From Isoperla grammatica (Eukaryota > Arthropoda > Insecta > Plecoptera > Perlodidae), in assembly GCA_945910005.1 (NCBI GenBank), contig OX246742.1, positions 47,035,902 through 47,099,901 of the forward strand: a stretch of 64,000 nt of DNA. The letters run 5' to 3'. The notes under the pieces are model-generated. The model was given only the letters and a program-made list of their open reading frames with translations, was not told where the DNA came from and did no database searches. Within the stretch, counting starts at the first letter, position 1; every line of letters starts with the position of its first letter. The position numbers and the translations under genes were made by a program. Below are positions 1 through 63,454 of this stretch, piece by piece.

Positions 1-3000
1 CTGCGCAGAGCAACAGGTACACCTGTGAGGGTAATGGTGGCTCCGGCACCCCACGGGTATCAGAGGTGGTCGCGATGAAGTGGGGGTCTAACGACCTGAC
101 CCCGTACTCGGACACACCTGCGCAGAGCAACAGGTACAACTGTGAGGGTAATGGTGGCTCCGGGGACCCCACGGGTATCAGAGGTGGTCGCGATGAAGTG
201 GGGGTCTAACGACCTGACCCCGTACTCGGACACACCTGCGCAGAGCAACAGGTACATCTGTGAGGGTAATGGTGGCTCCGGGGACCCCACGGGTATCAGA
301 GGTGGTCGCGATGAAGTGGGGGTCAAACGACCTGACCCCGTACTCGGGCACACCTGCACAGAGCAACAGGTACACCTGTGAGTCTAATGGTGGCTCCGGG
401 GACCCCACGGGTATCAGAGGTGGTCGCTATGAAGTGGGGGTCAAACGACCTGACCCCGTACTGGGGCACACCTGCGCAGAGCAACAGGTACATCTGTGAG
501 GGTAATGGTGGCTCCGGGGACCCCACGGGTATCAGAGGTGGTCGCGATGAAGTGGGGGTCAAACGACCTGACCCCGTACTCGGACACACCTGCGCAGAGC
601 AACAGGTCACAGCTGTGAGGGTAATGGTGGCTCCGGGGACCCCACGGGTATCAGAGGTGGTCGCGATGAAGTGGGGGTCAAACGACCTGACCCCGTACTG
701 GGGCACACCTGCGCAGAGCAACAGGTACATCTGTGAGGGTAATGGTGGCTCCGGGGACCCCACGGGTATCAGAGGTGGTCGCGATGAAGTGGGGGTCAAA
801 CGACCTGACCCCGTACTCGGACACACCTGCGCAGAGCAACAGGTCACATCTGTGAGGGAAATGGTGGCTCCGGGGACCCCCCGGGTATCAGAGGTGGTCG
901 CGATGAAGTGGGGGTCAAACGACCTGACCCCGTACTCGGGCACACCTGCGCAGAACAACAGGTACATCTGTGAGGGTAATGGTGGCTCCGGGGACCCCAC
1001 GGGTATCAGAGGTGGTCGCGATGAAGTGGGGGTCAAACGCCCTGACCCCGTACTGGGGCACACCTGCGCAGAGCAACAGGTACATCTGTGAGGGTAATGG
1101 TGGCTCCGGGGACCCCACGGGTATCAGAGGTGGTCGCGATGAAGTGGGGGTCAAACGACCTGACCCCGTACTCGGACACACCTGCGCAGAGCAACAGGTA
1201 CACCTGTGAGTCTAATGGTGGCTCCGGGGACCCCGCGGGTATCAGAGGTGGTCGCGATGAAGTGGGGGTCTAACGACCTGACCCCGTACTGGGGCACACC
1301 TGCGGAGAGCAACAGGTACAACTGTGAGGGTAATGGTGGCTCCGGGGACCCCGCGGGTATCAGAGGTGGTCGCGATGAAGTGGGGGTCAAACGACCTGAC
1401 CCCGTACTGGGGCACACCTGCGCAGAGCAACAGGTACAACTGTGAGGGTAATGGTGGCTCCGGGGACCCCGCGGGCATCAGAGGTGGTCGCGATGAAGTG
1501 GGGGCCTAACGACCTGACCCCGTACTCGGGCACACCTGCGCAAACAACAGGTACAACTGTGAGGGTAATGGTGGCTCCGGGGACCCCGCGGGTATCAGAG
1601 GTGGTCGCGATGAAGTGGGGGTCAAACGACCTGACCCCGTACTGGGGCACACCTGCGCAGAGCAACAGGTACAACTGTGAGGGTAATGGTGGCTCCGGGG
1701 ACCCCGCGGGTATCAGAGGTGGTCGCGATGAAGTGGGGGTCAAACGACCTGACCCCGTACTGGGGCACACCTGCGCAGAGCAACAGGTACAACTGTGAGG
1801 GTAATGGTGGCTCCGGGGACCCCGCGGGTATCAGAGGTGGTCGCGATGAAGTGGGGGCCTAACGACCTGACCCCGTACTCGGGCACACCTGCGCAAACAA
1901 CAGGTACAACTGTGAGGGTAATGGTGGCTCCGGGGACCCCGCGGGTATCAGAGGTGGTCGCGATGAAGTGGGGGTCAAACGACCTGACCCCGTACTGGGG
2001 CACACCTGCGCAGAGCAACAGGTACAACTGTGAGGGTAATGGTGGCTCCGGGGACCCCGCGGGTATCAGAGGTGGTCGCGATGAAGTGGGGGTCAAACGA
2101 CCTGACCCCGTACTGGGGCACACCTGCGCAGAGCAACAGGTACAACTGTGAGGGTAATGGTGGCTCCGGGGACCCCGCGGGTATCAGAGGTGGTCGCGAT
2201 GAAGTGGGGGTCAAACGACCTGACCCCGTACTCGGGCACACCTGCGCAGAGCAACAGGTACAACTGTGAGGGTAATGGTGGCTCCGGGGACCCCGCGGGT
2301 ATCAGAGGTGGTCGCGATGAAGTGGGGGTCAAACGACCTGACCCCGTACTCGGGCACACCTGCGCAGAGCAACAGGTACAACTGTGAGGGTAATGGTGGC
2401 TCCGGGGACCCCGCGGGTATCAGAGGTGGTCGCGATGAAGTGGGGGTCAAACGACCTGACCCCGTACTGGGGCACACCTGCGCAGAGCAACAGGTACACC
2501 TGTGAGGGTAATGGTGGCTCCGGGGACCCCACGGGTATCAGAGGTGGTCGCGATGAAGTGGGGGTCAAACGACCTGACCCCGTACTGGGGCACACCTGCG
2601 CAGAGCAACAGGTACATCTGTGAGTCTAATGGTGGCTCCGGGGACCCCACGGGTATCAGAGGTGGTCGCGATGAAGTGGGGGTCTAACGACCTGACCCCG
2701 TACTCGGGCACACCTGCGCAGAGCAACAGGTACACCTGTGAGGGTAATGGTGGCTCCGGCACCCCACGGGTATCAGAGGTGGTCGCGATGAAGTGGGGGT
2801 CTAACGACCTGACCCCGTACTCGGACACACCTGCGCAGAGCAACAGGTACAACTGTGAGGGTAATGGTGGCTCCGGGGACCCCACGGGTATCAGAGGTGG
2901 TCGCGATGAAGTGGGGGTCTAACGACCTGACCCCGTACTCGGACACACCTGCGCAGAGCAACAGGTACATCTGTGAGGGTAATGGTGGCTCCGGGGACCC

Positions 3001-6000
3001 CACGGGTATCAGAGGTGGTCGCGATGAAGTGGGGGTCAAACGACCTGACCCCGTACTCGGGCACACCTGCACAGAGCAACAGGTACACCTGTGAGTCTAA
3101 TGGTGGCTCCGGGGACCCCACGGGTATCAGAGGTGGTCGCTATGAAGTGGGGGTCAAACGACCTGACCCCGTACTGGGGCACACCTGCGCAGAGCAACAG
3201 GTACATCTGTGAGGGTAATGGTGGCTCCGGGGACCCCACGGGTATCAGAGGTGGTCGCGATGAAGTGGGGGTCAAACGACCTGACCCCGTACTCGGACAC
3301 ACCTGCGCAGAGCAACAGGTCACAGCTGTGAGGGTAATGGTGGCTCCGGGGACCCCACGGGTATCAGAGGTGGTCGCGATGAAGTGGGGGTCAAACGACC
3401 TGACCCCGTACTGGGGCACACCTGCGCAGAGCAACAGGTACATCTGTGAGGGTAATGGTGGCTCCGGGGACCCCACGGGTAACAGAGGTGGTCGCGATGA
3501 AGTGGGGGTCAAACGACCTGACCCCGTACTCGGACACACCTGCGCAGAGCAACAGGTCACATCTGTGAGGGAAATGGTGGCTCCGGGGACCCCCCGGGTA
3601 TCAGAGGTGGTCGCGATGAAGTGGGGGTCAAACGACCTGACCCCGTACTCGGGCACACCTGCGCAGAACAACAGGTACATCTGTGAGGGTAATGGTGGCT
3701 CCGGGGACCCCACGGGTATCAGAGGTGGTCGCGATGAAGTGGGGGTCAAACGCCCTGACCCCGTACTGGGGCACACCTGCGCAGAGCAACAGGTACATCT
3801 GTGAGGGTAATGGTGGCTCCGGGGACCCCACGGGTATCAGAGGTGGTCGCGATGAAGTGGGGGTCAAACGACCTGACCCCGTACTCGGACACACCTGCGC
3901 AGAGCAACAGGTACACCTGTGAGTCTAATGGTGGCTCCGGGGACCCCGCGGGTATCAGAGGTGGTCGCGATGAAGTGGGGGTCTAACGACCTGACCCCGT
4001 ACTGGGGCACACCTGCGCAGAGCAACAGGTACAACTGTGAGGGTAATGGTGGCTCCGGGGACCCCGCGGGTATCAGAGGTGGTCGCGATGAAGTGGGGGT
4101 CAAACGACCTGACCCCGTACTGGGGCACACCTGCGCAGAGCAACAGGTACAACTGTGAGGGTAATGGTGGCTCCGGGGACCCCGCGGGTATCAGAGGTGG
4201 TCGCGATGAAGTGGGGGCCTAACGACCTGACCCCGTACTCGGGCACACCTGCGCAGAGCAACAGGTACAACTGTGAGGGTAATGGTGGCTCCGGGGACCC
4301 CGCGGGTATCAGAGGTGGTCGCGATGAAGTGGGGGCCTAACGACCTGACCCCGTACTGGGGCACACCTGCGCAGAGCAACAGGTACACCTGTGAGGGTAA
4401 TGGTGGCTCCGGGGACCCCACGGGTATCAGAGGTGGTCGCGATGAAGTGGGGGTCTAACGACCTGACCCCGTACTGGGGCACACCTGCGCAGAGCAACAG
4501 GTACAACTGTGAGGGTAATGGTGGCTCCGGGGACCCCGCGGGTATCAGAGGTGGTCGCGATGAAGTGGGGGTCAAACGACCTGACCCCGTACTGGGGCAC
4601 ACCTGCGCAGAGCAACAGGTACAACTGTGAGGGTAATGGTGGCTCCGGGGACCCCGCGGGTATCAGAGGTGGTCGCGATGAAGTGGGGGTCAAACGACCT
4701 GACCCCGTACTGGGGCACACCTGCGCAGAGCAACAGGTACAACTGTGAGGGTAATGGTGGCTCCGGGGACCCCGCGGGTATCAGAGGTGGTCGCGATGAA
4801 GTGAAGGTCAAACGACCTGACCCCGTACTCGGGCACACCTGCGCAGAGCAACAGGTACACCTGTGAGTCTAATGGTGGCTCCGGGGACCCCACGGGTATC
4901 AGAGGTGGTCGCGATGAAGTGGGGGTCAAACGACCTGACCCCGTACTGGGGCACACCTGCGCAGAGCAACAGGTACAACTGTGAGGGTAATGGTGGCTCG
5001 GGGGACCCCACGGGTATCAGAGGTGGTCGCGATGAAGTGGGGGTCAAACGACCTGACCCCGTACTCGGGCACACCTGCGCAGAGCAACAGGTACATCTGT
5101 GAGGGTAATGGTGGCTCCGGGGACCCCGCGGGTATCAGAGGTGGTCGCGATGAAGTGGGGGTCAAACGACCTGACCCCGTACTCGGGCACACCTGCGCAG
5201 AGCAACAGGTACACCTGTGAGGGTAATGGTGGCTCCGGGGACCCCACGGGTATCAGAGGTGGTCGCGATGAAGTGGGGGTCTAACGACCTGACCCCGTAC
5301 TCGGGCACACCTGCGCAGAGCAACAGGTACACCTGTGAGGGTAATGGTGGCTCCGGGGACCCCACGGGTATCAGAGGTGGTCGCGATGAAGTGGGGGTCA
5401 AACGACCTGACCCCGTACTGGGGCACACCTGCGCAGAGCAACAGGTACATCTGTGAGGGTAATGGTGGCTCCGGGGACCCCACGGGTATCAGAGGTGGTC
5501 GCGATGAAGTGGGGGTCAAACGACCTGACCCCGTACTGGGGCACACCTGCGCAGAGCAACAGGTACACCTGTGAGTCTAATGGTGGCTCCGGGGACCCCA
5601 CGGGTATCAGAGGTGGTCGCGATGAAGTGGGGGTCAAACGACCTGACCCCGTACTGGGGCACACCTGCGCAGAGCAACAGGTACAACTGTGAGGGTAATG
5701 GTGGCTCCGGGGACCCCACGGGTATCAGAGGTGGTCGCGATGAAGTGGGGGTCAAACGACCTGACCCCGTACTCGGGCACACCTGCGCAGAGCAACAGGT
5801 ACACCTGTGAGGGTAATGGTGGCTCCGGGGACCCCACGGGTATCAGAGGTGGTCGCGATGAAGTGGGGGTCTAACGACCTGACCCCGTACTCGGGCACAC
5901 CTGCGCAGAGCAACAGGTACACCTGTGAGTCTAATGGTGGCTCCGGGGACCCCGCGGGTATCAGAGGTGGTCGCGATGAAGTGGGGGTCTAACGACCTGA

Positions 6001-7830
6001 CCCCGTACTCGGGCACACCTGCGCAGAGCAACAGGTACAACTGTGAGGGTAATGGTGGCTCCGGGGACCCCGCGGGTATCAGAGGTGGTCGCGATGAAGT
6101 GGGGGTCAAACGACCTGACCCCGTACTGGGGCACACCTGCGCAGAGCAACAGGTACAACTGTGAGGGTAATGGTGGCTCCGGGGACCCCACGGGTATCAG
6201 AGGTGGTCGCGATGAAGTGGGGGTCTAACGACCTGACCCCGTACTCGGGCACACCTGCGCAGAGCAACAGGTACACCTGTGAGTCTAATGGTGGCTCCAG
6301 GGACCCCGCGGGTATCAGAGGTGGTCGCGATGAAGTGGGGGTCAAACGACCTGACCCCGTACTCGGGCACACCTGCGCAGAGCAACAGGTACATCTGTGA
6401 GTCTGTCTAATGGTGGCTCCGGGGACCCCGCGGGTATCAGAGGTGGTCGCGATGAAGTGGGGGTCAAACGACCTGACCCCGTACTGGGGCACACCTGCGC
6501 AGAGCAACAGGTACAACTGTGAGGGTAATGGTGGCTCCGGGGACCCCGCGGGTATCAGAGGTGGTCGCGATGAAGTGGGGGTCTAACGACCTGACCCCGT
6601 ACTGGGGCACACCTGCGCAGAGCAACAGGTACACCTGTGAGTCTAATGGTGGCTCCGGGGACCCCACGGGTATCAGAGGTGGTCGCGATGAAGTGGGGGT
6701 CAAACGACCTGACCCCGTACTGGGGCACACCTGCGCAGAGCAACAGGTACACCTGTGAGGGTAATGGTGGCTCCGGGGACCCCACGGGTATCAGAGGGGG
6801 TCGCGATGAAGTGGGGGTCAAACGACCTGACCCCGTACTCGGGCACACCTGCGCAGAGCAACAGGTACAACTGTGAGGGTAATGGTGGCTCCGGGGACCC
6901 CACGGGTATCAGAGGTGGTCGCGATGAAGTGGGGGTCAAACGACCTGACCCCGTACTGGGGCACACCTGCGCAGAGCAACAGGTACAACTGTGAGGGTAA
7001 TGGTGGCTCCGGGGACCCCGCGGGTATCAGAGGTGGTCGCGATGAAGTGGGGGTCAAACGACCTGACCCCGTACTGGGGCACACCTGCGCAGAGCAACAG
7101 GTACATCTGTGAGGGTAATGGTGGCTCCGGGGACCCCACGGGTATCAGAGGGGGTCGCGATGAAGTGGGGGTCAAACGACCTGACCCCGTACTCGGGCAC
7201 ACCTGCGCAGAGCAACAGGTACATCTGTGAGTCTAATGGTGGCTCCGGGGACCCCGCGGGTATCAGAGGTGGTCGCGATGAAGTGGGGGTCAAACGACCT
7301 GACCCCGTACTCGGGCACACCTGCGCAGAGCAACAGGTACAACTGTGAGGGTAATGGTGGCTCCGGGGACCCCACGGGTATCAGAGGTGGCTGCGATGAA
7401 GTGGGGGTCAAACGAACTGACCCCGTACTCGGGCACACCTGCGCAGAGCAACAGGTCACAGCTGTGAGTCTTATGGTGGCTCCGGGGACCCCACGGGTAT
7501 CAGAGGTGGCTGCGATGAAGTGGGGGTCAAACGACCTGACCCCGTACTGGCGCACACCTGCGCAGAGCAACAGGTCACAGCTGTGAGGGTAATGGTGGCT
7601 CCGGGGCCCCCCCGGGTATCAGAGGTGGCTGCGATGAAGTGGGGGTCAAACGAACTGACCCCGTACTCGGGCACACCTGCGCAGAGCAACAGGTCACAGC
7701 TGTGAGGGTAATGGTGGCTCCGGGGACCCCACGGGTATCAGAGGTGGTCGCGATGAAGTGGGGTCAAACGACCTGACCCCGTACTGGGGCACACCTGCGC
7801 AGAGCAACAGGTCACGTCTGTGCGCAGGGC
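1..7830. repeat. 118-bp GC-rich satellite array, about 66 copies
   Basis: Tandem copies of a 118-bp unit fill the first 7.8 kb. Each copy carries recognisable blocks such as GGTGGTCGCGATGAAGTG and CCTGACCCCGTACT. Copies differ at a few recurring sites: CCCAC or CCCGC, GTCTAAC or GTCAAAC, CGGGCAC, CGGACAC or GGGGCAC, and TACAC, TACAAC or TACATC. The most diverged copies sit at the right edge (7380-7830), as expected for an array margin. Occasional 1-bp indels (for example near 45, 1549 and 2758) shift the period. The array is clearly more GC-rich than the flanking DNA. Because 118 is not a multiple of 3, frames change from copy to copy, and the open frames on both strands look like by-products. 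The left end is cut by the window. The array lies on the 3' side of the JHBP-like exons, so it could be intronic to that gene. Confidence 0.97.
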
Positions 7831-8079: not shown

Positions 8080-8172
8080 CTGCTTTGAAGAGCGGTCTAA
8101 CAGCATTCAGCGCGATCTTCAGGCAATCGTCAAACCCAGGCTTTCCAACTTTGCAGTTCTTAAAATAATCCG
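8080..8172 (-). CDS. JHBP-like gene exon 2 (paired-cysteine region)
   Basis: The exon has 93 bases between a TTTTGCAG acceptor and a GTAGGT donor. It carries the C-x9-C pair and the LKIALNAVRPLF helix typical of the start of the takeout/JHBP fold. It ends in phase 1, so a further exon is needed to continue the domain. Confidence 0.78.
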
Positions 8173-9195
8173 CTGCAAAATAACACAACATATCGGGTTA
8201 CGAATTAACACATATATTATCAGCTTGAATATAATATACAATCATTTAATCTGCTTCTTATGTAGTTACAATTATTAACATATGCAAATATTATATTATA
8301 GTAAGGACTGGATGCACAGTGTCCACTTGATTTGAGCAATTCTTTGTTGCTATGGAACTGTTTTATTACATACTATGACGATCAAGTTGAGTTACAAGTA
8401 CAGACTATCCTAATTTTAATTAATTCTGCTATAATTGATCCTTGGCCAGCACAGCCTGGTATCTTGACTCAAGTCTTGATGCAATGTTCACTGCACATCG
8501 TAATGAACTGGTCACACTGGTCAAGTTGTGCCGTGATTGGGGTCACCGGTGCATTCAGGCATCTACATAATATACCAGGTACCGGTCAAGCGTGGTAACG
8601 CACATGGTGAGAAGTGTGACTTATCAGCAGAGGTGTTTGTTTTTCGCAAAGCTCGATACATCGAAATATGTTATTCGATGCGTTATGTCTTTTTGTTTCA
8701 CATATCTCCAAGAAATTATATCGCGAAATAAAACGAGTACTGTGAATAAAACGAATTGTTTGATTTTTTAGCGGAATAAGAACATTTCGAGTCCAAAAAG
8801 CGAAAAAAAAAACAATTTCGCCTTTTTGAAATATTCAAACGGAAATTGCCGTTGTATTTTATCATTAAAATGTTAATATTTAAACAAAATACCATAACTT
8901 CCGCGAATTTAATGCCTACTAATGTGCTCAATTGTTTGCTCCTACCTCGTCTACTAATGCATAATTTATAGAAACACACTAAAAGTCATTTTCTAAATTC
9001 CTAACATTCCTCAAAAGTTTCAATTTTAGTCATATTCCGACCACAATTAATAAGAAAATATCTGACATGTTAACTCGACTCACCCAATGGTAACACTTCC
9101 ATCCCGGCAGCCCGTACCTCCATGTCCATGTTCATAAGACACAACATTAACACACACACTCCATAACTCTGAACGAAGAGCATGTTGATGCTCAT
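8080..9195 (-). CDS. Takeout/JHBP-like secreted protein, first two exons only
   Basis: Exons are 9195-9084 and 8172-8080. Exon 1 starts at the first in-frame ATG; an in-frame TGA lies upstream with no ATG between. It encodes 37 residues with a hydrophobic stretch (VCVLMLCLM), read as a signal peptide. The donor is GTGAGT. Exon 2 follows a TTTTGCAG acceptor, and the phase-1 junction restores an alanine codon. It encodes DYFKNC then FDDCLKIALN and RPLFKAG. This is the paired-cysteine start of the hemolymph JHBP/takeout family (cysteines at residues 44 and 54), which binds small hydrophobic ligands outside the cell. The exon 2 donor is GTAGGT. Family members are usually near 250 residues, so most of the gene is missing here; it would have to lie in or left of the satellite. 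I see nothing notable in the 911-bp intron. Function beyond family membership is inference. Confidence 0.75.
9084..9195 (-). CDS. JHBP-like gene exon 1 (signal peptide)
   Basis: The exon has 112 bases and holds 37 codons plus one base. It begins MSINMLFVQS and ends EVLPL before a GTGAGT donor at 9083-9078. The start is the only in-frame ATG after an upstream TGA. Confidence 0.72.
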
Positions 9196-10115: not shown

Positions 10116-13100
10116 CTGCAACGTAGCTGACGGGGCCCTAGTCTCACGATGCCACCCCCCGGTAACGCCTCCACCCCCACATCGCCGCCCCCGTGAGTCC
10201 GGCGCCGCCCGAGAAGCAGACCACCCCCAGCAGTGAGGGTAAGCCCCACACCCTCCAGGCTGAGGCACCTCCACCCTCTGTACCGGGGACCGGGGGTTGA
10301 CTGAAGTATAGAGTGTCACCCCTAGAAACAAGCAAACACACAATCAATGGTTCCTCTGTCACTGTTCACATTAAAATCGTAATGTTGTAATGATTATCAT
10401 GAGAAAATGTACAATTGCGACCCCAATCCCGATTACGATCACGATGCCGACAATTGTGGTTGAAGCTTTGGGTTTTAAATATTGAATATTATCAAATAAA
10501 GCCGCTAGATTGTGACAACAGCAAGAATAGTCTCATGTTTACCCTATAATTATACTTCGGCTAATCAAGGTATACTTGATCTCCGCTAGGCGAAGATCAA
10601 GCAGACCTTGCGGCTAATAAGATAGTAATCTATGTGTTTTGTGGGGCGCAATTATTAAACACGTTAAAAGAAGATAGAGATCCACAATAACTTGATTATA
10701 TCAATCAACAACAACTTACGGCGCAATGGCTGCAAACTCTCCCATCAAGTTACTCGAATTAGCGTTGCAACCTCGACATCCGTCCTGCCCGCGTATCTCG
10801 AGGTCAAAGCAGCCGGTGACGTCATCAATAGAGTCACACTCATAGGCTGAGTAGTCTCTGTCTTTGAGGATGGACTCTCTGAAGTAGACGTGCGCTCTGC
10901 TGTGGCTGCAGGTGGGCAGTACACACCCCGGCTGGTAGACCCCTCGATGGGGGTAGAAGTCTGCGTGGCCGCACGGGGCCTTCAAGCCCAGCAGCTGAGT
11001 GTCTGTGTGGATCACGTCGACAAACAACGCGTCACTCTTGTCCAGCCTGGTGTCCGGGCCCTGAGAGCCGTACCTCACACCCGCAGGGTCCAGCCCTAAA
11101 CAATACGTCAGTTCATAAGATTGCAATATTACGAAATTTCAATAAAACCCCACAATATTGTCTCATTTTTTCGAAACAAAATCAGATTTGCGTTCGTTTT
11201 TACGGATCGTTTGTTTTTGCCGAAGACATCCAAAATATCCCGCTACGTATACTCCTAATTTTTTTAATTGTAATTGTCGATTATTTTCAAATTATGAACG
11301 AAACCCGTTAAACTGTCACAATAGCGGCATTTACACGTACACTCTTGCGCGCACGCTTGCGTGTCGCGTTCTTGTGCAGAGGAAAGACAGCGCGCAAAAC
11401 CGTGGGTTGGAGCACCGCGCAAGAGTGTGGTGTCTAAAACTGCATCACACTCTTGCGCGCACGCTCCGCAGGGAAACGAAAGCGCGCGTTCCAGAGTGTG
11501 CGTGTAAATGCCAATCCCTTCGTCTTTACTACACTTTTACGTGGCGCGTGGAGTGTTCGGAGTTTTCAGATGATTCAGGACGTTCTTTCCCTTGCAAGCT
11601 TGCTTTTACACGGACAGTTTTACCTGCACTCTTGCGCGCGCGCAACCCTCAGATGATTCGCGACGTTCTTTCCCTTGCAAGGCATTTGCTTTTACACGTA
11701 CAGTTTCACCTGCAGGAAAGAACGCGCGACAACGAATCCCGCGCGCAAGAGTTCACTTGTAAAGGCCCCTAATGCCCGAGTGTTTAGTCCGAGTCCTCAC
11801 CTGTGATCCTGGCTACCCGGCCACGCGTGACGTGTTGTCCGGCCACCCCCGCCACGTGCGCGCCCAGGCTGTGTCCAATCAGGTGCAGGCTGTCAAGGTC
11901 AACAGCTTCCTGCTCAACCAGGTAGTCCAGGAACATGGCCAGGTATCGGCCCACGTCCAACGTCCTTCTCATTGGTCCCAGGTAACAGTGTAGAGACAGT
12001 CCGGCTAGGTCTCCCCAGTCTACAGCTATCACGTTGATACGCGAGCTGTTTCGGCTGCGGGGGTCCAAGTAGGCTGAAATTATAATAATGTTGGTGCACA
12101 CCAGCTTTACCTGATGTGCCCCTCTTCAGGTGACTATCTAGGTTATTAGGGTGTTTGGATAGTTGGGAAGGATTGTCCGAGGGCTGATAGTATGACTCAA
12201 TCCCAGCATTCGCTTTTACGACTGAGGAAAACCTCGAAAAAACCTTCAGTCAGGACTGCCGGTGACCGGAATCGAACCGGCGACCTCCCGAATAAGAGTC
12301 TCGCGTCTTACCGCTGAGCCACCTCTATCGGTAAGTTGGCTGCATCAGTTGTCCGAGTCCAACTGTACCAACCTAATCATCTACTTCCTACCGTCTTCTT
12401 TGAACAGGTCCATTAGGAATAATTAATGACCTTGGGTTGGAGCGGGGGTGACTGATAAGGGTTCTGCACTCCACTAACCGCCTGTACGAAGGTGTGAACG
12501 AACCCCAGGAATCTGTTTAGTTTGTTGGCCCTTCGAATAAGTCAGTCTACTTGTCCTTTTCTATACTAATTGACAGTCTAACTCGCTCGGCGAGGCTAAA
12601 ATCTGTCTTCAAGAATATCCCAACAATCTCTCCCTGTGTAAGGACTAAGGACCCTTAAGGTTTGTGCTTTCTATATCCTCTTGACTTCAGCCAACACTCT
12701 ATGATGTTTTTAAGTATTCTTGCCTGAATATCCCACGTTGCTGCCACACAAGATATATCACTCCCAACTCTTTGGCCCTCTCACCATCTTTTATCTTCTG
12801 GATCATCTCAGCTTTGAGGGTGTTTATGAACCCGTGGATGAGTACCTTGGTCGGGGCTCGTCTTAGCATCATGTAAGGCAACGAGTTGTTGATCTTCAAC
12901 TGTGTCTCAGCCACTTGGTCGCCCTTCAACCTGGAAGCATATTATGATGTATATTTCCATTTGGATTTATAATAAACATTGCATGTGTTGGCGGTGGGGA
13001 AGTGTATCTAGGTTAGTCCTAGTTGGTGATAACCTATCGAAGAGTGCTCATCATTGATCAGTACTCGAAATATTGCGTTTTAATTTTAATTGTGACAAGA

Positions 13101-14841
13101 AATAGTGCACTGTCCAAAAGTTTGTTTTATAATGATTAGATGTATTTTAAAGAGACAGTCCTCAAAGTCAGATCGTCCCGTGTACAAAAACATTGCCAGT
13201 CTCGTGCCCACTGCAAAACAAAACCATGGTTTTTAATTAAATTTACAACTTTCTTATATAAAACATTAATTTTGATGGAAAATACTTATAGTAAAAATGT
13301 GGATTTAGGTTTTTCAGTTTGGTATTTTGCCATTTTGTGTCCAGAGTTGGTTTTGGCAGATCAATTACTTTGTCCAACTAGTGGGCGTACCTTCTGAAGA
13401 GGTGGAACCGGACATGAGTTTCAAGGTCAAGCTCTGTCTCCCTCTTCTCCCGGCAGTTAACCCTGACCTCCACAGTGTCCCCGTTGTCGTCGGGGAAGGG
13501 CAGCATCGCGATGTCCCGGTCCTGGGACACAACTGAAACCATTGGCTGCTGTCTCACTGTCTCACTGGTGTACTCGTGATCATACCAGGGCACACTTTCA
13601 GATTATAGCTATTTATCACGGCTAACTCTAAAACTTGTCGCTTGAGATTAAAAATAATGTATACTTATCAGTAAATAAGTATATCTTATACATTTAAGAT
13701 ACTGTTCATACTTTTTTTAAATTTCATAAAATAAATAATATTTATTTATTATCTACCCACCCATCATTACAGGAACTGATATTCAGTGGGGGGTATTATA
13801 CATTATTATTTCCTCATTCCTAAGACTCAAAGTCACAGTTTACATGATTATGTCAGGGGCTGAATTATGAAATGTCGGAAAGCTATTATCTTGTTTTCAC
13901 CATGGCCACACATTGGTTGTTGCCTTCATACTACGGCCTCAGTAGCCTATCGTAGAGTTGTGTCAATGAATGGAGTAAAAAACTCATCCCGGACCGGGAA
14001 TCGAACCCTGGATGTTATTCATTGGAATAAGGAATAAACCCACAATATCACAAGTCCAAAATAAACGAATCAGTACAACGTGAATCAAGTAGCGTCAGTA
14101 TATTGACTATCACATGTCTCACGTCACAATGTCTCAACCACTCAAGTAGTTCTAAACTTACCTGCGTTTACAACCATTCAAGTAGTTCTAAACTTACCTG
14201 CGTTGACAACCACTCAAATAGTTCTAAACTTACCTGCGTTGACAACCACTCAAGTAGTTCTAAACTTACTTGCGTTGACAACCACTCAAGTAGTTCTAAA
14301 CTTACCTGCGTTGACAACCACTCAAGTAGTTCTAAACTTACCTGCGTTTACAACCATTCAAGTAGTTCTAAACTTACCTGCGTTGACAACCACTCAAGTA
14401 GTTCTAAACTTACCTGCGTTGACAACCACTCAAATAGTTCTAAACTTACCAGCGTTGACAACCACTCAAGTAGTTCTTAACTTACCTGCGTTGACAACCA
14501 CTCACGTAGTTATAAACTTACCTGCGTTGACAACCATCACGTAGTTATAAACTTACCTGCGTTGACAACCACTCACGTAGTTATAAACTTACCTGCGTTG
14601 ACAACCATCACGTAGTTCTAAACTTACCTGCGTTGACAACCACTCAAGTAGTTCTAAACTTACCTGCGTTGACAACCACTAAAGTAGTTCTAAACTTACC
14701 AGCGTTGAGAACCACTAAAGTAGTTCTAAACTTACCAGCGTTGACAACCACTCACGTAGTTCTAAACTTACCAGCGTTAATCAACGAAGCCAAAACTACG
14801 ACCACAACCACAACCACAACACACTCTCGAAACAGAAACAT
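10076..14841 (-). CDS. Secreted lipase, pancreatic-lipase/PLA1-like family (six exons)
   Basis: Assembled exons are 14841-14772, 13532-13391, 12930-12785, 12073-11801, 11095-10720 and 10115-10076. All junctions are in phase and total 1047 bases, or 348 residues. Exon 1 is a valine-rich signal peptide (cleavage likely after INA). PTKVLIHGF near residue 103 holds the HG oxyanion motif. VIAVDWGD follows at 134-141. The nucleophile elbow GHSLGAH gives Ser188, GLDPAG gives Asp213, and CSHSRAH gives His275, so the triad is complete. The enzyme should hydrolyse ester bonds of lipids or phospholipids outside the cell. Only four residues separate the lid cysteines (268 and 273), so it is nearly lidless, as in insect PLA1-like members. 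Length fits insect secreted lipases. An AATAAA follows the stop. The last exon (GAWKKSVQQIRL) is the least certain; a stop also occurs directly after exon 5 if it is not spliced. Substrate cannot be decided. Confidence 0.85.
10550..10622. repeat. Short hairpin, MITE-like
   Basis: In the last lipase intron, CAAGGTATACTTGATCT faces AGATCAAGCAGACCTTG around GCTAGGCG. The motif resembles one end of the inverted-repeat element at 37169-37546 (GTAGACCTTGGCTTA), so it may be a solo end of that family. Confidence 0.4.
10720..11095 (-). CDS. Lipase exon 5 (catalytic Asp and His)
   Basis: The exon has 376 bases after TTGTTTAG. It encodes GLDPAG (catalytic Asp), LDKSDALFVDVIHTD, GHADFYP, QPGC-VLPT-CSHSRAH (short lid loop, catalytic His) and a cysteine-rich stretch ending SSNLMGEFAAIA. 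The end GCGCC/GTAAGT is a consensus donor. Read through, it gives a stop one codon later. Confidence 0.9.
11337..11769. mobile_element. Nested CpG-rich foldback element in lipase intron 4
   Basis: The outer ends are inverted copies (GGCATTTACACGTACACTCT and its counterpart ending at 11769). Inside are further direct and inverted copies of TTACACGT, CTCTTGCGCGC and GACGTTCTTTCCCTTGCAA. This suggests repeated insertion or duplication of one small family. The sequence is CpG-rich against an AT-rich intron. The open frame across it is probably fortuitous. Confidence 0.55.
11801..12073 (-). CDS. Lipase exon 4 (catalytic serine)
   Basis: The exon has 273 bases after TTTCAG. It encodes INVIAVDWGDLAG and LHLIGHSLGAHVAG, with the nucleophile serine in GHSLG. 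It ends ATCACAG/GTGAGG. Confidence 0.9.
12115..12335 (-). mobile_element. tRNA-derived SINE in lipase intron 3
   Basis: On the minus strand, TGGCTCAGCGG (12321-12311) and GGTTCGATTCC (12279-12269) are good pol III A and B boxes at tRNA spacing. The flanks do not pair as an acceptor stem, so this is not a tRNA gene. The downstream body (CCTTCCCAACTATCC region) matches about 50 bp near 9655-9735. Degenerate relatives appear near 17273-17320 and 13985-14015. Confidence 0.65.
12785..12930 (-). CDS. Lipase exon 3 (oxyanion HGF motif)
   Basis: The exon has 146 bases from TTCCAG to GATG/GTGAGA. It contains PTKVLIHGF and joins exon 4 as KIKDAYLD, the usual MRDAYL-like helix of the family. Confidence 0.85.
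13391..13532 (-). CDS. Lipase exon 2 (N-terminal strand region)
   Basis: The exon has 142 bases after TTTCAG. It encodes VSQDRDIAMLPFP through LETHVRFHLFR before AAG/GTACGC. This is the N-terminal beta region that precedes the oxyanion motif in this family. A near-identical copy lies at 16318-16459. Confidence 0.82.
14138..14761 (-). repeat. 36-bp minisatellite built from the lipase exon 1 splice donor
   Basis: Seventeen copies of a 36-bp unit (two are 34 bp) lie directly downstream of lipase exon 1. Read on the gene's strand, almost every unit carries AACGCAG/GTAAGT or AACGCTG/GTAAGT, the same sequence as the authentic exon 1 end and intron start. The array therefore presents about 17 extra consensus 5' splice sites in intron 1. 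Most units carry an in-frame TGA soon after the donor, so use of a downstream site would usually truncate the protein. The plus-strand open frames are a by-product of the 36-bp period. Confidence 0.9.
14772..14841 (-). CDS. Lipase exon 1 (signal peptide)
   Basis: The exon has 70 bases: MFLFREC, then nine valines, then LASLINA, and one base before GCTG/GTAAGT. The phase-1 end fits the start of exon 2 exactly (it makes a Val codon). The valine run is encoded by a GTT/GTG microsatellite-like stretch. Confidence 0.75.
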
Positions 14842-15854: not shown

Positions 15855-16150
15855 TGTTCTATGTGTAGTACGGGCAAGAAGTGGCTGTGGCGTTACGAAG
15901 ACTACAGCCATGATCACCCCTGAGCGATGGAGGGAGCTGCCAGTCTCCAAAACATCGTCGTTACAACTACTTTCTAGTAGGGCATGAGAAGAAAATACCT
16001 TAAATATAAAGTTACCTTCCTTTACAAACACTTTGCACGAACCTTCAAAGCCCATTGATCCCCTAGTGGGAGGTTTATAGACCTCAACACTTCCCAAGAT
16101 ATTATGGTGTTTCCAATGGCTGCACAGGGGGGCAGCGAGGGGGGGTCGAC
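15855..16150 (-). mobile_element. Dispersed repeat, copy A (minus orientation)
   Basis: Nearly the same sequence occurs in plus orientation at about 63455-63760. Both copies run from a G- or C-rich end (GCTGCACAGGGG), through the stretch encoding MGFEGSCKV, to GTCTTCGTAACGCCAC. Their shared open frame follows from DNA identity and does not show that they code. The element class is unknown. Confidence 0.55.
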
Positions 16151-16317
16151 CCGGGTCGGGCCAACCACAAACTTAAAAAAAGGAAAATATTGAATAAAAT
16201 TTTCTCATAACATTAATAATGATGTGTTGTCTTTTCGTCAACCATATTAAACTTGCATCTCTTGACTCCAGAGTTGGTTTTGGCAGATCAATTACTTTGT
16301 CCAACTAGTGGGCGTAC

Positions 16318-16459
16318 GTTCTGTAGAGGTGAAACCGGACATGGGTTTCAAGGTCAAGCTCTGTCTCCCTCTTCTCCCGGCAGTGAACGTTGACCTCCAC
16401 AGTGTCCCCGTTGTCGTCGGGGAAGGGTAGCATCGCGATGTCCCGGTCCTGGGACACAA
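16318..16459 (-). pseudogene. Duplicate of lipase exon 2, open frame intact
   Basis: The 142-base copy is the same length as exon 2 at 13391-13532. It keeps the TTTCAG acceptor and a donor (GAAC/GTACGC). It translates without stops (VSQDRDIAMLPFP to VRFHLYRT), with a few substitutions. About 45 bp of flanking intron are also copied. It lies upstream of lipase exon 1, so it cannot be a simple mutually exclusive exon unless another promoter lies beyond. It may be a relic of an upstream gene copy; no matching copies of the other exons are seen nearby. Confidence 0.7.
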
Positions 16460-17165
16460 CTGAAACCATTGGCTGCTGTCTCACTGTCTCACTGTCTCAC
16501 TGTCTCACTGTCTCACTGGTACAGTATAAACCTGGGACACAACTGAAACCATTGGCTGCTGTCTCACTGTCTCACTAGTACAGTATAAACCTGGGACCCA
16601 ACTGAAACCATTGGCAGCTGTATCACTGGTACAGTATAAACCTGGGACACAACTGAAACCATTGGCTGCTGTCTCACTGGTACAGTTTAAACCTGGGACA
16701 CAACTGAAACCATTGACAGCTGTCTCACTGGTACAGTATAAACCTAGGACACAACTGAAACCATTGGCTGCTGTCTCACTGGTACAGTATAAACCTGGGA
16801 CACAACTGAAACCATTGGCTGCTGTCTCACTGGTACAGTATAAACCTGGGACACAACTGAAACCATTGGCTGCTGTCTCACTGTCTCACTGGTACAGTAT
16901 AAACCTGGGACACAACTGAAACCATTGGCTGCTGTCTCACTGTCTCACTGGTACAGTATAAACCTGGGACACAACTGAAACCATTGGCTGCTGTCTCACT
17001 GGTACAGTTTAAACCTGGGACACAACTGAAACCATTGACAGCTGTCTCACTAGTACAGTATAAACCTAGGACACAACTGAAACCATTGGCTGCTGTCTCA
17101 CTGGTACAGTATAAACCTGGGACACAACTGAAACCATTGGCTGCTGTCTCACTGGTACAGTATAC
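16460..17165 (-). repeat. About 51-bp minisatellite built from a lipase splice acceptor
   Basis: Twelve copies abut the duplicated exon 2 on its upstream side. On the minus strand each unit reads GTACCAGTGAGACAGCAGCC, AATGGTTTCAG, then TTGTGTCCCAG. That is the intron end, acceptor and first 11 exon bases of lipase exon 2. Some units carry extra GTGAGACA steps. This mirrors the donor-derived array at 14138-14761. Confidence 0.9.
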
Positions 17166-41118: not shown

Positions 41119-41211
41119 CAATTTCTACGGTGTTCCGAGATATTGCGAGTGCATGGTGCGTGTTTTGTAGTGATTTAATTCGGTTGCCGCGAAGTTTTAA
41201 TACGGTTCGCG

Positions 41212-44200
41212 ATGGACTCTGATAGCGCGTCTATCAAGCCGTTCGTGCCTGGTGCCGATACCAGTGTTGCATCACTTAAATGGGACAGATGGCTGAGATC
41301 GTTCGAACTCTTTGTTCTCGCGAAGGGTGTCACCGGAGCCCAGCGCAAGAAGGCTCTTTTACTTCATCTCGGGGGAGAGTGTGTGCAAGACATATGGTTC
41401 ACATTGCCCGAGTCACAGGTAGAACATGACGACCTATCGCTCGAGTATGATGCATGTAGAGCGACATTGCAAAAGTACTTCCAGCCACAAACGTGCTTTG
41501 CTCACCAGAGACAAGTTTTTCGAGCAATGAAGCAAGCTTCGGGTGAAACTGTTGCACAGTTTGTTACGCGCCTACAGGGCCAAAGTAAGTACTGTAATTT
41601 TGGTTCACGGGCCGAGGATGCCCTCCTCGACCAACTTCGAGAAATGTGCTCTCTCAGTGACGTCAGGCGGGACTTGCTGAAGGTAGGAGACGCATTAACT
41701 TTGAACCAAGCGCTCGAGATCGGTCGGGCGGTCGAGGTGACGCAATCCGTACGCCACCCACCGCTGTCCGCGTCTGGCGCGGGCGACAGTCTCCATGCGA
41801 GCGTGAACGCAATTGCGCGCTCGGCTGAGCGAGAAGGAGGGAAATTCAACAAAAAACGTAAGTGTTACCGTTGTGGCTCCTCCAAGCACTTAGCAAGTGA
41901 TGCGAAATGCCCTGCAAAGGGGAAAACCTGCAATAAATGCGGTAAAGATGGCCATTTTGCAGGGGTGTGTAAAACAAAAAATGAAACTAAATCCTCCACT
42001 GCAGCACAGCAGAATGCCAAAGGTGGGAGAAATAGAGTGAACAACCTCACTTCAGAAGAAGAGCAAGGGGTTGGCTACACATTCACAGTAGGTACAAAGC
42101 CAGATGAGATGCTTACCGTCGAACTGGGCGGTGTCGCAGTTGAAGTGATAATAGATTCTGGTGCTACTTGTAATATCCTCGACAAGGAGACTTGGGAATA
42201 CTGCAAGAGAAACCGTATTTCGGGGAAATGCGGTGAATCCAACAAAACCCTGTATGCTTATGCCAGTACTGAACCATTACAAGTGCTTGGCAAATTCACA
42301 ACCACTATAAGGGTTGGGCCTAAAGTGTGTGAAAGCATAGTGTTCCATGTGGTAGAAGGGAAGGGAGTTCCTTTGCTAGGGAAAATCTCTGCTAAAGGCC
42401 TAGGTGTTCTGAAGCTAGGCTATCCTTTAAACCACGTGTCCACAGATCAAGGTGGAAAAGCATGCAATCTTGATAGTATTCAGAGGGACTTTCCAACACT
42501 ATTCTCAGGGATAGGGAAACTAAAGGACTTCGAATTGAAACTCTATGTAAAGGAGGGAGTTACACCTGTTGCACAAGCCGTTAGGAAGGTACCGCATCAA
42601 CTGAAGCCGGCGATCAAGGCTAAGATTGATGGGCTAGTTGCAGCAGACCTGATCGAAAGGGTTGTCTCCCCCTCCGAGTGGGTATCACCTATCGTCCCAA
42701 GTCAAACCAAGTCAGGTGAGATCAGACTTTGCATTGATATGCGCGAACCTAACAAAGCAATTGTCAGGGAGAGATATGTAATCCCTACAATAAATGATAT
42801 CATGCCAGAGTTACAAGGTAGTAAGGTGTTCAGCAAGTTGGATTTAAAGTCCGCGTTTCATCAGATAGTACTAAACAAGGAATCTCGAGAGATAACGACT
42901 TTCGTTTGTGCTGCTGGCCTGTTCCGGTTCAAGAGATTATTCTTCGGAATAAATTGCGCCCCGGAAATCTTCCAACGCCTAATGGAAACCGTGGTAGCAG
43001 ACTGCGAGGGAGTCGAAGTATTTATCGATGACTTGATCGTCCATGGTAAAGACCAAGCAGAACACGATCGTAGACTTCTAAAGTTGTTGCAGACGCTTCT
43101 AGAGAAAGGACTAACGCTGAACGCGGGAAAATGTGAGATTAGCAAAACCCAGGTTGATTTCCTAGGACACCATATTTCTGGGCAAGGAGTAAAACCTCTT
43201 CACAGTAAGGTTAAAGCGGTGCAAGAGTTTAGACCGCCAGAAACCAAGGAAGAGATCAAATCATTTCTCGGTATAGCCGGATACTGTTCCCGGTTCTTGC
43301 CGAACTACTCCACTGTTACGGAGCCACTTAGAAGACTTCTGAAGCAGAACGTGAGCTTCAAATGGGGTAAGGACCAGGCTGAGGCATTCAATGAAATCAA
43401 AGGGATGCTAGCTGATACAAGTACTTTAGGGTTCTATACTCCTGGCGCTCCAACAACTATAATTGCGGATGCCAGCCCATACGGGTTGGGGGCTGTTCTA
43501 ATCCAGGAACAGAGAGATGGGCCCCGAATTATCGAATTCGCGAGCCGATCCCTCACTGATGCAGAAGTCAAGTTCAGCCACATCGAAAAGGAGGCACTGT
43601 CTCTTGTATGGTCGTGTGAGCGTTTTCACCACTACATTTATGGTGGCGAATTTACGCTTGTCACAGATCACAAACCCCTACAATTTATCTTCGGGACTAA
43701 ATCGAGACCGTGTGCTCGAGTAGAGAGATGGATGTTAAGACTTCAAGGCTACAACTACAAGGTTATGTATCAACCAGGGAAGACCAACATAGCCGATCCA
43801 CTATCTAGACTACTGAAGCCAAGACAGAACGGCAATCCAGAACTTGATGAGATCCAAGACACTTACATACACTGGGTCGCAACACAGGCTGTACCTCAAG
43901 CAATGCGCCTAGAAGAGATACAAGCAGTGTCAGAAAGTGACGAAGAAATAACCCAACTGCGGCAAAGCCTCACGGCAGACATTTGGCCCGCAGAACTCAG
44001 AACTTATGAGCTAATCAAACAAGAGCTCAGTTGCTACGAGTCAATCGTCCTACGCGGATCTCGCCTTCTCATTCCAAAGAAACTTCGTGCGCAAGTTCTC
44101 GAACTAGCACATCAGGGTCATCCAGGGATTGTCGCTATGAAGCAAAAACTTCGCACCAAGGCGTGGTGGCGCAATATCGATAAAGATGTCGAGTTATTCT

Positions 44201-45213
44201 GCAAACACTGTCACGAGTGCCAGCTAGTAAGTTCCTACAGTCCACCAGAGCCGATGGTACGGAGCATTCTTCCAGAGCGCCCCTGGCAGGACATTGCAGT
44301 CGATTACCTGGGACCGTTACCAGACGGACAATTCATTCTTGTTGCTGTGGACTACTACTCCAGGTTTTACGAAGCTGCCCTGACAAGAACTACAACTTCG
44401 GAAAAAACTATCGACATCCTGGACGAGATATTTATGCGCTTCGGTTACCCTGAATCCGTAAAGACCGACAATGCCGCGTACTTTACGAGCGACGAGTTCA
44501 AGTCATACTGCACGGCTAACAACATCGAAATTAGGCATTCGACGCCGCTATGGCCTTGCGCTAATGGACTTGTTGAACGCCAGAATCGCGGTATCGTCAA
44601 GCGTTTAAAGATAGCCGCATCGAAAGGAGAAACGATGAAGAACGCTCTCCGGGAATACTTGTTTTTGTATCGCACAACTCCCCATTCCGTGACTGGGTGT
44701 ACTCCCGCATTCCTTATGTTTGGGAGGGAACTACGTGACAAGATACCTACCCTACACCCGACACCGAACTTGGATGAAGCAGTCCGCGACCGAGACCGGG
44801 TGAAAAAGCAGATCGGGAAGGAGTATGGTGATAACACCAGACATGCTATAAACAGCAACATAGCAGTGGGAGACCTAGTGCTGGCTCGACAGGACAAACA
44901 GAATAAACTGTCAACTCCCTACTTTCCTGTACCCTTCGAGGTGACTGGTCGCACCGGCAGTGAAGTTACTATTAGTTCCCCGCAAGGTGTGAACTACCGC
45001 AGAAATGCGAGTCACCTACGGAAGTATTGGCCGCAGGACAAAGCTAAGGCAAACCCCGAGAGTGAGCCTGTTCCTGCCGCATCATCCGACACAGGCCCTC
45101 CACTCCAAACCCTGCAAGCTACACAATCACCTGCTCGCAGTCAGGACCAGGACTTACCGAGACCCAGCCGGGACCGGAAAGCTCCCGCATGGTTGAAGGA
45201 TTTTCACCATTAA
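41212..45213 (+). CDS. gag-pol polyprotein of the gypsy retrotransposon
   Basis: A single frame of 1333 codons. The N-terminal part is gag-like. Two CCHC zinc knuckles follow near residues 218-253 (CYRCGSSKHL, CNKCGKDGHFAGVC). Aspartic protease DSGAT is near 315. Reverse transcriptase runs from about 440, with LDLKSAFHQI and FIDDL (Asp606/607). RNase H has ADAS near 753. Integrase has the HHCC finger from His967 (HQGHPG ... CKHCHEC) and a DDE triad at about Asp1031, Asp1086 and Glu1122. The last two are 35 residues apart, as in D,D-35-E integrases. The order protease-RT-RNase H-integrase is Ty3/gypsy. The start is the first ATG after the leader. Gag and pol share one frame, so no frameshift is needed to make pol. 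Closest type by appearance is the Mag/K02A2.6-like group; this is not tested. Confidence 0.97.
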   Translation: MDSDSASIKPFVPGADTSVASLKWDRWLRSFELFVLAKGVTGAQRKKALLLHLGGECVQDIWFTLPESQVEHDDLSLEYDACRATLQKYFQPQTCFAHQRQVFRAMKQASGETVAQFVTRLQGQSKYCNFGSRAEDALLDQLREMCSLSDVRRDLLKVGDALTLNQALEIGRAVEVTQSVRHPPLSASGAGDSLHASVNAIARSAEREGGKFNKKRKCYRCGSSKHLASDAKCPAKGKTCNKCGKDGHFAGVCKTKNETKSSTAAQQNAKGGRNRVNNLTSEEEQGVGYTFTVGTKPDEMLTVELGGVAVEVIIDSGATCNILDKETWEYCKRNRISGKCGESNKTLYAYASTEPLQVLGKFTTTIRVGPKVCESIVFHVVEGKGVPLLGKISAKGLGVLKLGYPLNHVSTDQGGKACNLDSIQRDFPTLFSGIGKLKDFELKLYVKEGVTPVAQAVRKVPHQLKPAIKAKIDGLVAADLIERVVSPSEWVSPIVPSQTKSGEIRLCIDMREPNKAIVRERYVIPTINDIMPELQGSKVFSKLDLKSAFHQIVLNKESREITTFVCAAGLFRFKRLFFGINCAPEIFQRLMETVVADCEGVEVFIDDLIVHGKDQAEHDRRLLKLLQTLLEKGLTLNAGKCEISKTQVDFLGHHISGQGVKPLHSKVKAVQEFRPPETKEEIKSFLGIAGYCSRFLPNYSTVTEPLRRLLKQNVSFKWGKDQAEAFNEIKGMLADTSTLGFYTPGAPTTIIADASPYGLGAVLIQEQRDGPRIIEFASRSLTDAEVKFSHIEKEALSLVWSCERFHHYIYGGEFTLVTDHKPLQFIFGTKSRPCARVERWMLRLQGYNYKVMYQPGKTNIADPLSRLLKPRQNGNPELDEIQDTYIHWVATQAVPQAMRLEEIQAVSESDEEITQLRQSLTADIWPAELRTYELIKQELSCYESIVLRGSRLLIPKKLRAQVLELAHQGHPGIVAMKQKLRTKAWWRNIDKDVELFCKHCHECQLVSSYSPPEPMVRSILPERPWQDIAVDYLGPLPDGQFILVAVDYYSRFYEAALTRTTTSEKTIDILDEIFMRFGYPESVKTDNAAYFTSDEFKSYCTANNIEIRHSTPLWPCANGLVERQNRGIVKRLKIAASKGETMKNALREYLFLYRTTPHSVTGCTPAFLMFGRELRDKIPTLHPTPNLDEAVRDRDRVKKQIGKEYGDNTRHAINSNIAVGDLVLARQDKQNKLSTPYFPVPFEVTGRTGSEVTISSPQGVNYRRNASHLRKYWPQDKAKANPESEPVPAASSDTGPPLQTLQATQSPARSQDQDLPRPSRDRKAPAWLKDFHH

Positions 45214-51360: not shown

Positions 51361-51549
51361 ATAAAGAGAGTCCTTACCTATTCTAGTACTTCTACGCGGC
51401 CGCCTCAAACCCGCCACGCTTATACACACGTATAAAGATTTTATTCGCCCCGTCTTCAACTATTAGTAGAGGAGCAAAAGGTATCTCGTGCGCCTTTCGT
51501 GAAAGAGTATTGCGGTAAACGGTATTCTGTTACGGCATACCATACGAGT

Positions 51550-52130
51550 ATTTTGCACCTACCTGGCAGATCCTGGCACGCTGCAGAGGGCGCCAGGAGC
51601 GTCGTGACGTCATAGACACGTTTTAATTAATTACTTTTGAACGGTTTATGTCACAGAAAATATCAAGAGAACAATTTTATGATGTCATACTAGATGAGAA
51701 TTTATAACCTATCTGCCACATTCTGGCGGGCTGCAGAGGGCGCCAGGAGCGTCGTGACGTCATATACACGTTTGAACTAATAACGTTTGAACGGTTCATG
51801 TCACAGAAAATATGTAGAGTACAATTCTTCTATAAAATACTAAACGAGTATTTTGCACTTACCTGGCACATCCTGGCACGCTGAAGAGGGCGCCAGGAGC
51901 GTCATGACGTCATACACACGTTTTAATTAATAACGTTTGAACGGTTCATGTCACAGAAAATGTCAAGGAAACAATTCTATTACGAAATACTATTTGAGTA
52001 TTTTGCATCTACTTTGCACATCGTGTCACGCTGCAGAGGGCGCCAGGAGCGTCGTGACGTCATACACTTTTTCATTAATAACTTTTGAACGGTTTATATC
52101 ACAGAAAATATCAAGAAGACAATATTATAG
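51550..52130. repeat. Subterminal repeats, left arm (four units of about 150 bp)
   Basis: Each unit has GCAGAGGGCGCCAGGAGCGT (with small changes), CGTGACGTCAT, a TTAATTAATAACGTTTGAAC-like stretch and TCACAGAAAATATC. The copies end near 51600, 51750, 51905 and 52060. Such repeats are commonly transposase-binding sites. Confidence 0.8.
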
Positions 52131-52421
52131 AAAATTTAAATACAAATCGATTGATATGTACCAATAGGGTAATCATGTAATATTTAAGGGAGAAATTGCT
52201 AACAGATAATAATAATTAGATGTGTATATGAAATGCAGGGCATCCCTCATCGTAATATCTATTTATTACTATTTCGAAGTTATAATTGTATCACTGTGAA
52301 GGACTTAATAATCGTAGTCATCCCAACATACCCATGGGTATCTGTTGTTTAACAATAATAATAATTATTATTATTGTATACGAGTTACTATTCATAGACT
52401 GATTAGTAAAACTCACGTTTG

Positions 52422-54239: not shown

Positions 54240-54589
54240 CAAACGTGAGTTTTACTAATCAGTCTATGAATAGTAACTCGTATACAATAATAATAATTAT
54301 TATTATTGTTAAACAACAGATACCCATGGGTATGTTGGGATGACTACGATTATTAAGTCCTTCACAGTGATACAATTATAACTCCGAAATAGTAATAAAT
54401 AGATATTACGATGAGGGATGCCCTGCATTTCATATACACATCTAATTATTATTATCTGTTAGCAATTTCTCCCTTAAATATTACATGATTACCCTATTGG
54501 TACATATCAATCGATTTGTATTTAAATTTTCTATAATATTGTCTTCTTGATATTTTCTGTGATATAAACCGTTCAAAAGTTATTAATGA

Positions 54590-55130: not shown

Positions 55131-55177
55131 ACAGAATACCGTTTACCGCAATACTCTTTCACGAAAGGCGCACGAGA

Positions 55178-63215: not shown

Positions 63216-63454
63216 TCCCCCCCCCCTCATCATGTAGTCTTCAAGAAGTACTGACGTACTGTGCTCGGCTGGGTGCAGACTGCACTTGTTAGTCCAGAGT
63301 AATAACATAACAGTGTTGTACAGCCGCTGTACAATATGTTTCATTTGGAGTCAAGAGATGCAAGTTTAATATGGTTTATGAAAAGACAACACATCATCAT
63401 TATTAATGTTATGAATAAATTATATTCAATATTTTCTTTTTCCCGATCTAGATC

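Follow-up and report, generated by a model that had tools for sequence, protein, structure and literature searches.

How a gene keeps its product when the splice site that ends an exon has been copied many times over into the adjoining intron, and whether such copies regulate the gene, are questions raised by a predicted lipase gene of Isoperla grammatica. The gene lies in a 64,000-nucleotide stretch of contig OX246742.1 (hereafter the window), in which a minisatellite at the end of its first exon repeats the 5' splice donor 18 times.

A donor array at the first exon-intron boundary of a predicted lipase gene

The predicted gene is encoded on the minus strand by six exons, with introns that are all GT-AG and 1185 nt in one frame. 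Its parts are as follows, with a slash marking the splice junction here and below:

14772..14841, minus strand: exon 1, with ATG and hydrophobic leader MFLFRECVVVVVVVVVLASLINA, ending in phase 1 (in-frame join to exon 2; start codon and leader putative)
13391..13532, minus strand: exon 2, with the single acceptor caatggtttcag/TTGTG (gene model and sequence)
12785..12930, minus strand: exon 3 (gene model, paralog comparison)
11801..12073, minus strand: exon 4, with the GHSLGAH motif (gene model, Pfam, paralog comparison)
10720..11095, minus strand: exon 5 (gene model, paralog comparison)
10144..10321, minus strand: exon 6, with a hydrophobic C-terminal segment and the stop (gene model, paralog comparison)
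14135..14778, minus strand: 36-bp minisatellite in which GTAAGT occurs 18 times, counting the authentic donor at 14771 (Tandem Repeats Finder and motif count)

That the gene encodes a lipase, as a first-pass annotation of this DNA had proposed, is supported by a match to the Pfam Lipase family (PF00151; E 2e-51), with the GxSxG nucleophile motif present as GHSLG in exon 4; the product is related to pancreatic lipase-related protein 2. In a search of a 5.8-billion-protein database, identity was at most 49% among the best 120 of 2475 matches, this value belonging to a protein without a name. The names within these 120 were mainly arthropod, the others being Porites, Mya, Grus, Patella and Lytechinus, with no lancelet named, and the named matches with the best scores were arthropod lipases, the best at 43% identity over 51% of the query. 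The gene model is supported by a paralog on contig C12 (32.7 Mb), which breaks at the same residues, 120/121 and ~212, and many further paralog matches break near residues 208-212. Exon 1, whose leader is GT-rich simple sequence, is the least certain exon, a prediction from its ATG, hydrophobic leader, donor and phase, the last being compatible with exon 2. Within intron 3 (~12140-12320, minus strand), a tRNA-like start leading into a SINE-like tail was seen by eye, on which ARAGORN and Rfam were silent; no tRNA or Rfam matches were found within the window.

Tandem Repeats Finder places the donor array at 14135-14778 (period 36, 17.9 copies, 94% matches, score 1113), and its minus strand holds exactly 18 GTAAGT, with first intron bases at 14771, 14735 and onward to 14161, spaced by 36 bases in 15/17 cases and by 35 in 2/17. 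The first donor closes the predicted exon 1 (14841-14772) and the other 17 lie inside intron 1, bearing out the earlier description of a 36-bp donor-spanning repeat with 17 extra copies on the gene's strand. Each unit corresponds to 7 exonic and 29 intronic bases around the donor at 14771, and the tandem repeat therefore spans the exon-intron boundary. The exonic part that is repeated exactly consists of the 7 bases AACGCTG, which in most units have drifted to AACGCAG. The extra donors read CAG/GTAAGT (13), CTG/GTAAGT (3) and CAA/GTAAGT (1), and 13 of the 17 match U1 better than the authentic donor does, position -2 now being A beside an intact G; CAG/GTAAGT is a perfect U1 complement, with a duplex energy of -12.1 kcal/mol versus -9.1 at the authentic site (scored with a donor frequency matrix and against the 5' end of U1).

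Splicing from any of donors 2-18 is predicted to yield one identical 29-residue peptide, MFLFRECVVVVVVVVVLASLINAGKFRTT (MFLF...INAGKFRTT, then stop), because an in-frame TGA already occurs in the first unit. The first-pass annotation had pointed to a TGA after the donor in most units; truncation from every downstream donor stands, but the TGA of the first unit suffices for all of them, so that the coding content of later units is irrelevant.

The consensus unit, searched across the whole 874-Mb genome with up to 3 mismatches, matched within the lipase array in 16/16 cases (control, 0). Eleven of the 17 unit sequences are distinct, and neighbouring units resemble each other more than shuffled units do (permutation p = 0.006), pointing to homogenisation within the array and supporting the earlier proposal that it grew by tandem duplication; the copy number is that of one assembly. 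Selection on the donor columns was not significant in this alignment (by a hand estimate, ~12% chance for a given 6-column stretch), and in RNA folding the first donor was no more accessible than the decoys.

A second copy of lipase exon 2 with an acceptor array

Upstream of exon 1, the window contains a further copy of exon 2, preceded by an array of its own:

16267..16494, minus strand: exon 2', which duplicates lipase exon 2 and its flanks (96.5% identity over 228 bp)
16459..17164, minus strand: acceptor array with 13 copies of ggtttcag/TTG, the last being that of exon 2' itself (Tandem Repeats Finder and motif count)

The acceptors are spaced by 51 bases eight times, by 59 three times and by 83 once. 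One acceptor copy precedes the working exon 2 and 13 precede exon 2', despite the near identity of the two, and on sequence comparison these counts hint at length polymorphism of the array. No copies of other lipase exons were found beside exon 2'. An interspersed repeat that occurs in inverted orientation at 15865-16270 and 63346-63765 (87% identical) ends where the exon 2 duplicate starts, and may have taken part in the duplication.

Junction arrays in the neighbouring genes

Similar arrays occur in the genes on both sides of the lipase gene, one of them of the juvenile-hormone-binding-protein (JHBP) type and the other resembling IFT52:

9084..9195, minus strand: JHBP-type exon 1, with leader peptide (gene model)
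8080..8172, minus strand: JHBP-type exon 2 (gene model)
1..7812, continuing to L009:8858 in the left flank, minus strand: 118-bp acceptor array filling most of JHBP-type intron 2 (75.8 copies counting the flank)
L009:7105-7405: 55-base donor array ending JHBP-type exon 4, 5 copies (7365-7143), 4 with GTAAGT and 1 with GTAAAC
L010:7267-7871, 7 kb right of the window: donor array of the IFT52-like gene, 14 copies of CCCAG/GTACGTTG that take up most of a 664-base intron

The 118-base unit copies the acceptor and the first ~80 bases of JHBP-type exon 3, which itself sits left of the window, with 71 exact occurrences of CTGCGCAG; 8,874 of the 9,141 bases of intron 2 are thus an array of its own acceptor. 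When exons 1-3 were joined at the last acceptor copy, the product matched the Pfam family of haemolymph juvenile-hormone-binding proteins (E 2.2e-14), and joining exons 1-4 brought the match to E 1.9e-24. The JHBP domain has an arthropod distribution. For the donor array of exon 4, the exon end alone was seen. The exon before the joint in the IFT52-like gene matches the Osm-6-like protein in PDB, a solved IFT52-type structure (E 9.5e-10), with a Pfam score below the cut-off (E 0.0093), and joining the first donor to the exon past the array gives an open frame that runs on to a stop.

All three non-mobile genes recognised in the local 84 kb (lipase, JHBP-type and IFT52-like) therefore carry junction arrays. 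Five of the 14 distinct arrays in this region lie at splice junctions (P 1.7e-6 to 3.1e-5), or 4/13 when the lipase array, which was given, is set aside (P 3.9e-5 to 3.9e-4), these P values being post hoc, set after the arrays had been seen, and assuming 22-40 junctions and a 60-base target. In the Tandem Repeats Finder rows of 284 kb, at least two MAGGTRAGT were present in 1/53 (the lipase array) versus 0 for the reversed pattern, and at least three GTAAGT on one strand in 3 versus 2 for the reversed pattern, overlapping rows being counted.

Elsewhere in the window, inverted copies of a 150-bp tandem array, whose unit holds the donor-like CCAGGTAGGTGC, flank a transposon-like gene (51546-52133 and 54538-55137), and a 1344-residue open frame of a gypsy-type LTR retrotransposon occupies 41179-45213. 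The RT/RNase H piece of the retroelement scored highest mostly with pseudoscorpion proteins (37-45% identity), followed by those of insects, molluscs and echinoderms (up to 58%); a second protein of the window that was searched gave 21 matches, the one named being from Actinostola.

Arrays elsewhere in the genome

We searched the genome for three exact CAGGTAAGT spaced by 24-54 bases, with the reversed pattern as control. This strict donor-array pattern matched 16 times genome-wide versus 10 for the control, no clear excess by match count. The 16 matches fall into five places, four of which are recognisable as the ends of coding exons, one each in the lipase and PTPA genes and two in maltase-like genes. 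Places found beyond the local region, together with one array from a sample of contig C12, are:

Contig C1, L031-L034: exon end of a PTPA gene, 23/46-bp donor array with 18 CAGGT (Pfam E 4.7e-22)
Contig C16, L043-L046: two maltase-like GH13 genes, each with an intron that starts in a donor array and ends in an acceptor array
Contig C13, L042:1468-1619: three 51-bp units around GGATCAG/GTAAGT
Contig C12, L017:5790-7057: 92-bp array, 13.8 copies, the last of which enters a very long open frame

At the PTPA array, where the exon end alone was seen, the exon matches human PTPA up to ...KVFNR. The two maltase-like genes have 4 and 26 donor units, with 6 and 4 acceptor copies, respectively, at the next exon. 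In both, the frame is continuous when the first donor is joined to the last acceptor (...SKTDNIT-R-VMMTEAYAPLNETMRYYGTEQRRG...); one gene matches Pfam Alpha-amylase across the joint (E 1.8e-20), and the one that was aligned to a solved salivary alpha-glucosidase has no gap at the joint. In the 26-unit donor array, 9/26 units read CAGATAAGT, with the GT lost, and 3/26 carry GTAGGT. The units on contig C13, where a 27-residue frame had no Pfam hit, are perhaps a repeated small exon.

On contig C12, twenty 10-kb stretches at even intervals (L011-L030) contained 26 arrays, of which at least one is a likely junction array, a lower bound because most array-edge frames were untried; between 0.4 and 0.65 would be expected by chance under assumed gene numbers and reckoned on 27 arrays. 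This one, at L017:5790-7057, is judging by its open frame a likely acceptor array of a predicted gene, although the part of the frame that was tried had no Pfam hit, nor did seven other array-edge frames from these stretches.

Probable tolerated growth of repeats at splice junctions

Junction arrays thus recur in unrelated genes, at 5' (donor) and 3' (acceptor) boundaries alike, a pattern that favours a general repeat process over a device specific to the lipase gene. We consider it fairly probable that the lipase array is a splice-junction minisatellite (a 'mirage'), in which growth of the repeat on the intron side is tolerated, the outermost donor is used and the decoys are passengers. A short tandem duplication across the boundary of exon 1 and intron 1 would have started the array, and slippage or unequal exchange would then have enlarged and homogenised it on the intron side, a step that the relationships between units support. 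Since the extra copies are all intronic, lipase would still be made while splicing starts from the outermost donor, the one next to the exon; the array may have survived because this outermost site alone matters, and copies spreading into the exon would be removed. The tolerated decoys may exact a small cost through mis-splicing to a truncated, decay-prone mRNA, and exon definition, or exonic enhancers outside the repeat, may let the outermost site prevail over stronger and more numerous copies. Wherever the protein could be read across the joint (in the JHBP-type, the IFT52-like and both maltase-like genes), it fits a join at the outermost copies, which leaves the decoys inside the intron. 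Loss of GT in the maltase-like units, and GTAAAC in 1/5 JHBP donors, suggest that copies are tolerated without selection. The arrays are probably tolerated repeat growth that needs no benefit to the lipase, and for the lipase gene itself the array is probably a passenger and not a regulator.

Some observations run against this passenger reading. GTAAGT is intact in all 18 lipase donors, more than neutrality alone would demand, but this argument is weak because 26/36 columns of the unit are invariant, with a longest invariant run of 7. Exon 1 is itself predicted, its leader being simple sequence, and folding gives the first donor no advantage in accessibility. A regulatory alternative, raised in the first-pass annotation, is that the 17 extra donors divert some splicing into the 29-residue product, copy number setting the yield of lipase. 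GTAAGT is present in all 17 decoys, 13 of them pair better with U1 than the authentic donor does, and each leads to the truncated peptide; moreover, a title cited in a report on human CBS ties its donor-spanning 31-bp VNTR to reduced activity (PMC2630376). However, unrelated genes carry like arrays, some at donors and some at acceptors, and 9/26 donors are dead in one maltase-like array. We therefore regard such tuning as unlikely, while granting it some plausibility for the lipase gene because its decoys all keep GTAAGT and are mostly stronger than the true site.

A role for unspliced decoys, in which they would recruit U1 near the promoter and so block early polyadenylation or raise transcription, appears very improbable to us. 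Although 13 perfect 9-base U1 matches fall within ~680 bases of the ATG, and the AATAAA/ATTAAA of intron 1 come solely beyond the array (13750, 13746), acceptor arrays of the same style would need another explanation, and donors decay in the maltase-like array. We give still less credence to recursive splicing, in which an upstream donor would join the CAG of a unit and re-create the same donor. The 13/17 decoys reading CAG/GTAAGT would allow it, but a 36-nt unit is too short for an intron, the lower length limits of introns exceeding 36 nt, and the commonest unit, as read from the units, has 6 pyrimidines in the 15 bases preceding CAG, short of the pyrimidine tract of recursive splice sites. 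Joined haplotypes might also have created the copy number or exon 2', or the gene might be dead, and exon 2' is indeed a 228-bp duplicate upstream of exon 1 that stands alone. Ordered private variants in the lipase units, a frame intact across six exons and the recurrence of junction arrays on other chromosome-size contigs speak against an artefact or a non-functional remnant, which we find hard to credit.

The lineage might direct the birth of minisatellites to splice junctions, so that many genes would carry inward-growing arrays of donors and acceptors and the spliceosome would pick the outermost site against up to ~70 exact or near-exact decoys; candidate causes would be DNA damage linked to transcription or splicing, R-loops, or slippage that starts at the edges of exons. 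The local count of 5/14 arrays suggests junction-targeted formation. Because this excess is post hoc, the even sample yielded 1/26 and the genome-wide search showed no clear excess, we advance it only as a tentative and somewhat doubtful hypothesis.

Genes with junction arrays are natural competition experiments, in which one splice site faces 3 to ~70 of its own copies in a fixed order, at donors, at acceptors and in some cases at either end of a single intron. Whether position relative to the exon or the strength of the site decides could be read from RNA data of this species alone. The arrays also reveal one way in which introns grow longer, and new exons may arise likewise.

Comparison with known junction repeats

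Repeats spanning exon-intron boundaries were named 'mirages' in the globin genes of amphioxus, in a report that also cites Adh, describes length instability, finds its data to suggest that normal splicing is left undisturbed and proposes that new introns can originate in this way (PMC3087553); PGBD5 and troponin C are added in another (PMC3902484). As described there, the amphioxus mirages (Adh3, the globins BflGb6 and BflGb9, and PGBD5) resemble the present arrays in being minisatellite-like, in lying at 5' and 3' boundaries, in their AG/GT units and in their concerted evolution (PMC3087553, PMC3902484). They belong to a cephalochordate, whereas the present arrays belong to an arthropod, reach ~75 copies and, in the maltase-like genes, occupy both ends of one intron. 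The host lineage is no part of the mirage mechanism.

To our knowledge, the intronic VNTR of human ABCA7 is not built on a duplicated splice junction. It shares with the lipase array its place as a tandem repeat in an intron and, by the title of the report, an effect on splicing (PMC5954066). Minisatellites in the first intron of an earthworm metallothionein gene and in an intron of an abalone TSSK1-like gene are also large and in invertebrate introns, with no junction-spanning repeats described in the accessible portions of the sources (PMC12783039, PMC6905558).

Human CBS comes closer. Its 31-bp VNTR, c.1444_1467+7(16_21), comprises by name 24 exonic and 7 intronic donor bases and is polymorphic at 16-21 copies, so that it is like the lipase array in a unit that spans a 5' splice site and in having at least 16 copies, the lipase array having 18 donors (PMC2630376). 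The CBS repeat concerns one human gene and is mostly exonic, whereas the lipase repeat is mostly intronic (7 exonic bases to 29 intronic ones) and its first unit already brings a premature stop. The CBS insertion 844_845ins68 likewise duplicates an intron-exon boundary, one copy of the site being favoured and the other segment removed, and differs in having, as far as these excerpts describe it, two copies and no array (PMC2630376, PMC7277093).

Among the matches listed from open-licence PMC literature, the amphioxus mirages and the CBS repeat were met, with no recognisable arthropod case, and recurrence over neighbouring genes, such copy numbers and double-ended arrays were not met. The first-pass annotation had called the array unusual, but arrays of the kind are already known from amphioxus and human CBS, and they recur here in several genes. 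What is new is the arthropod setting and the recurrence within a genome, and arrays of this kind in an arthropod would extend the mirage phenomenon beyond chordates.
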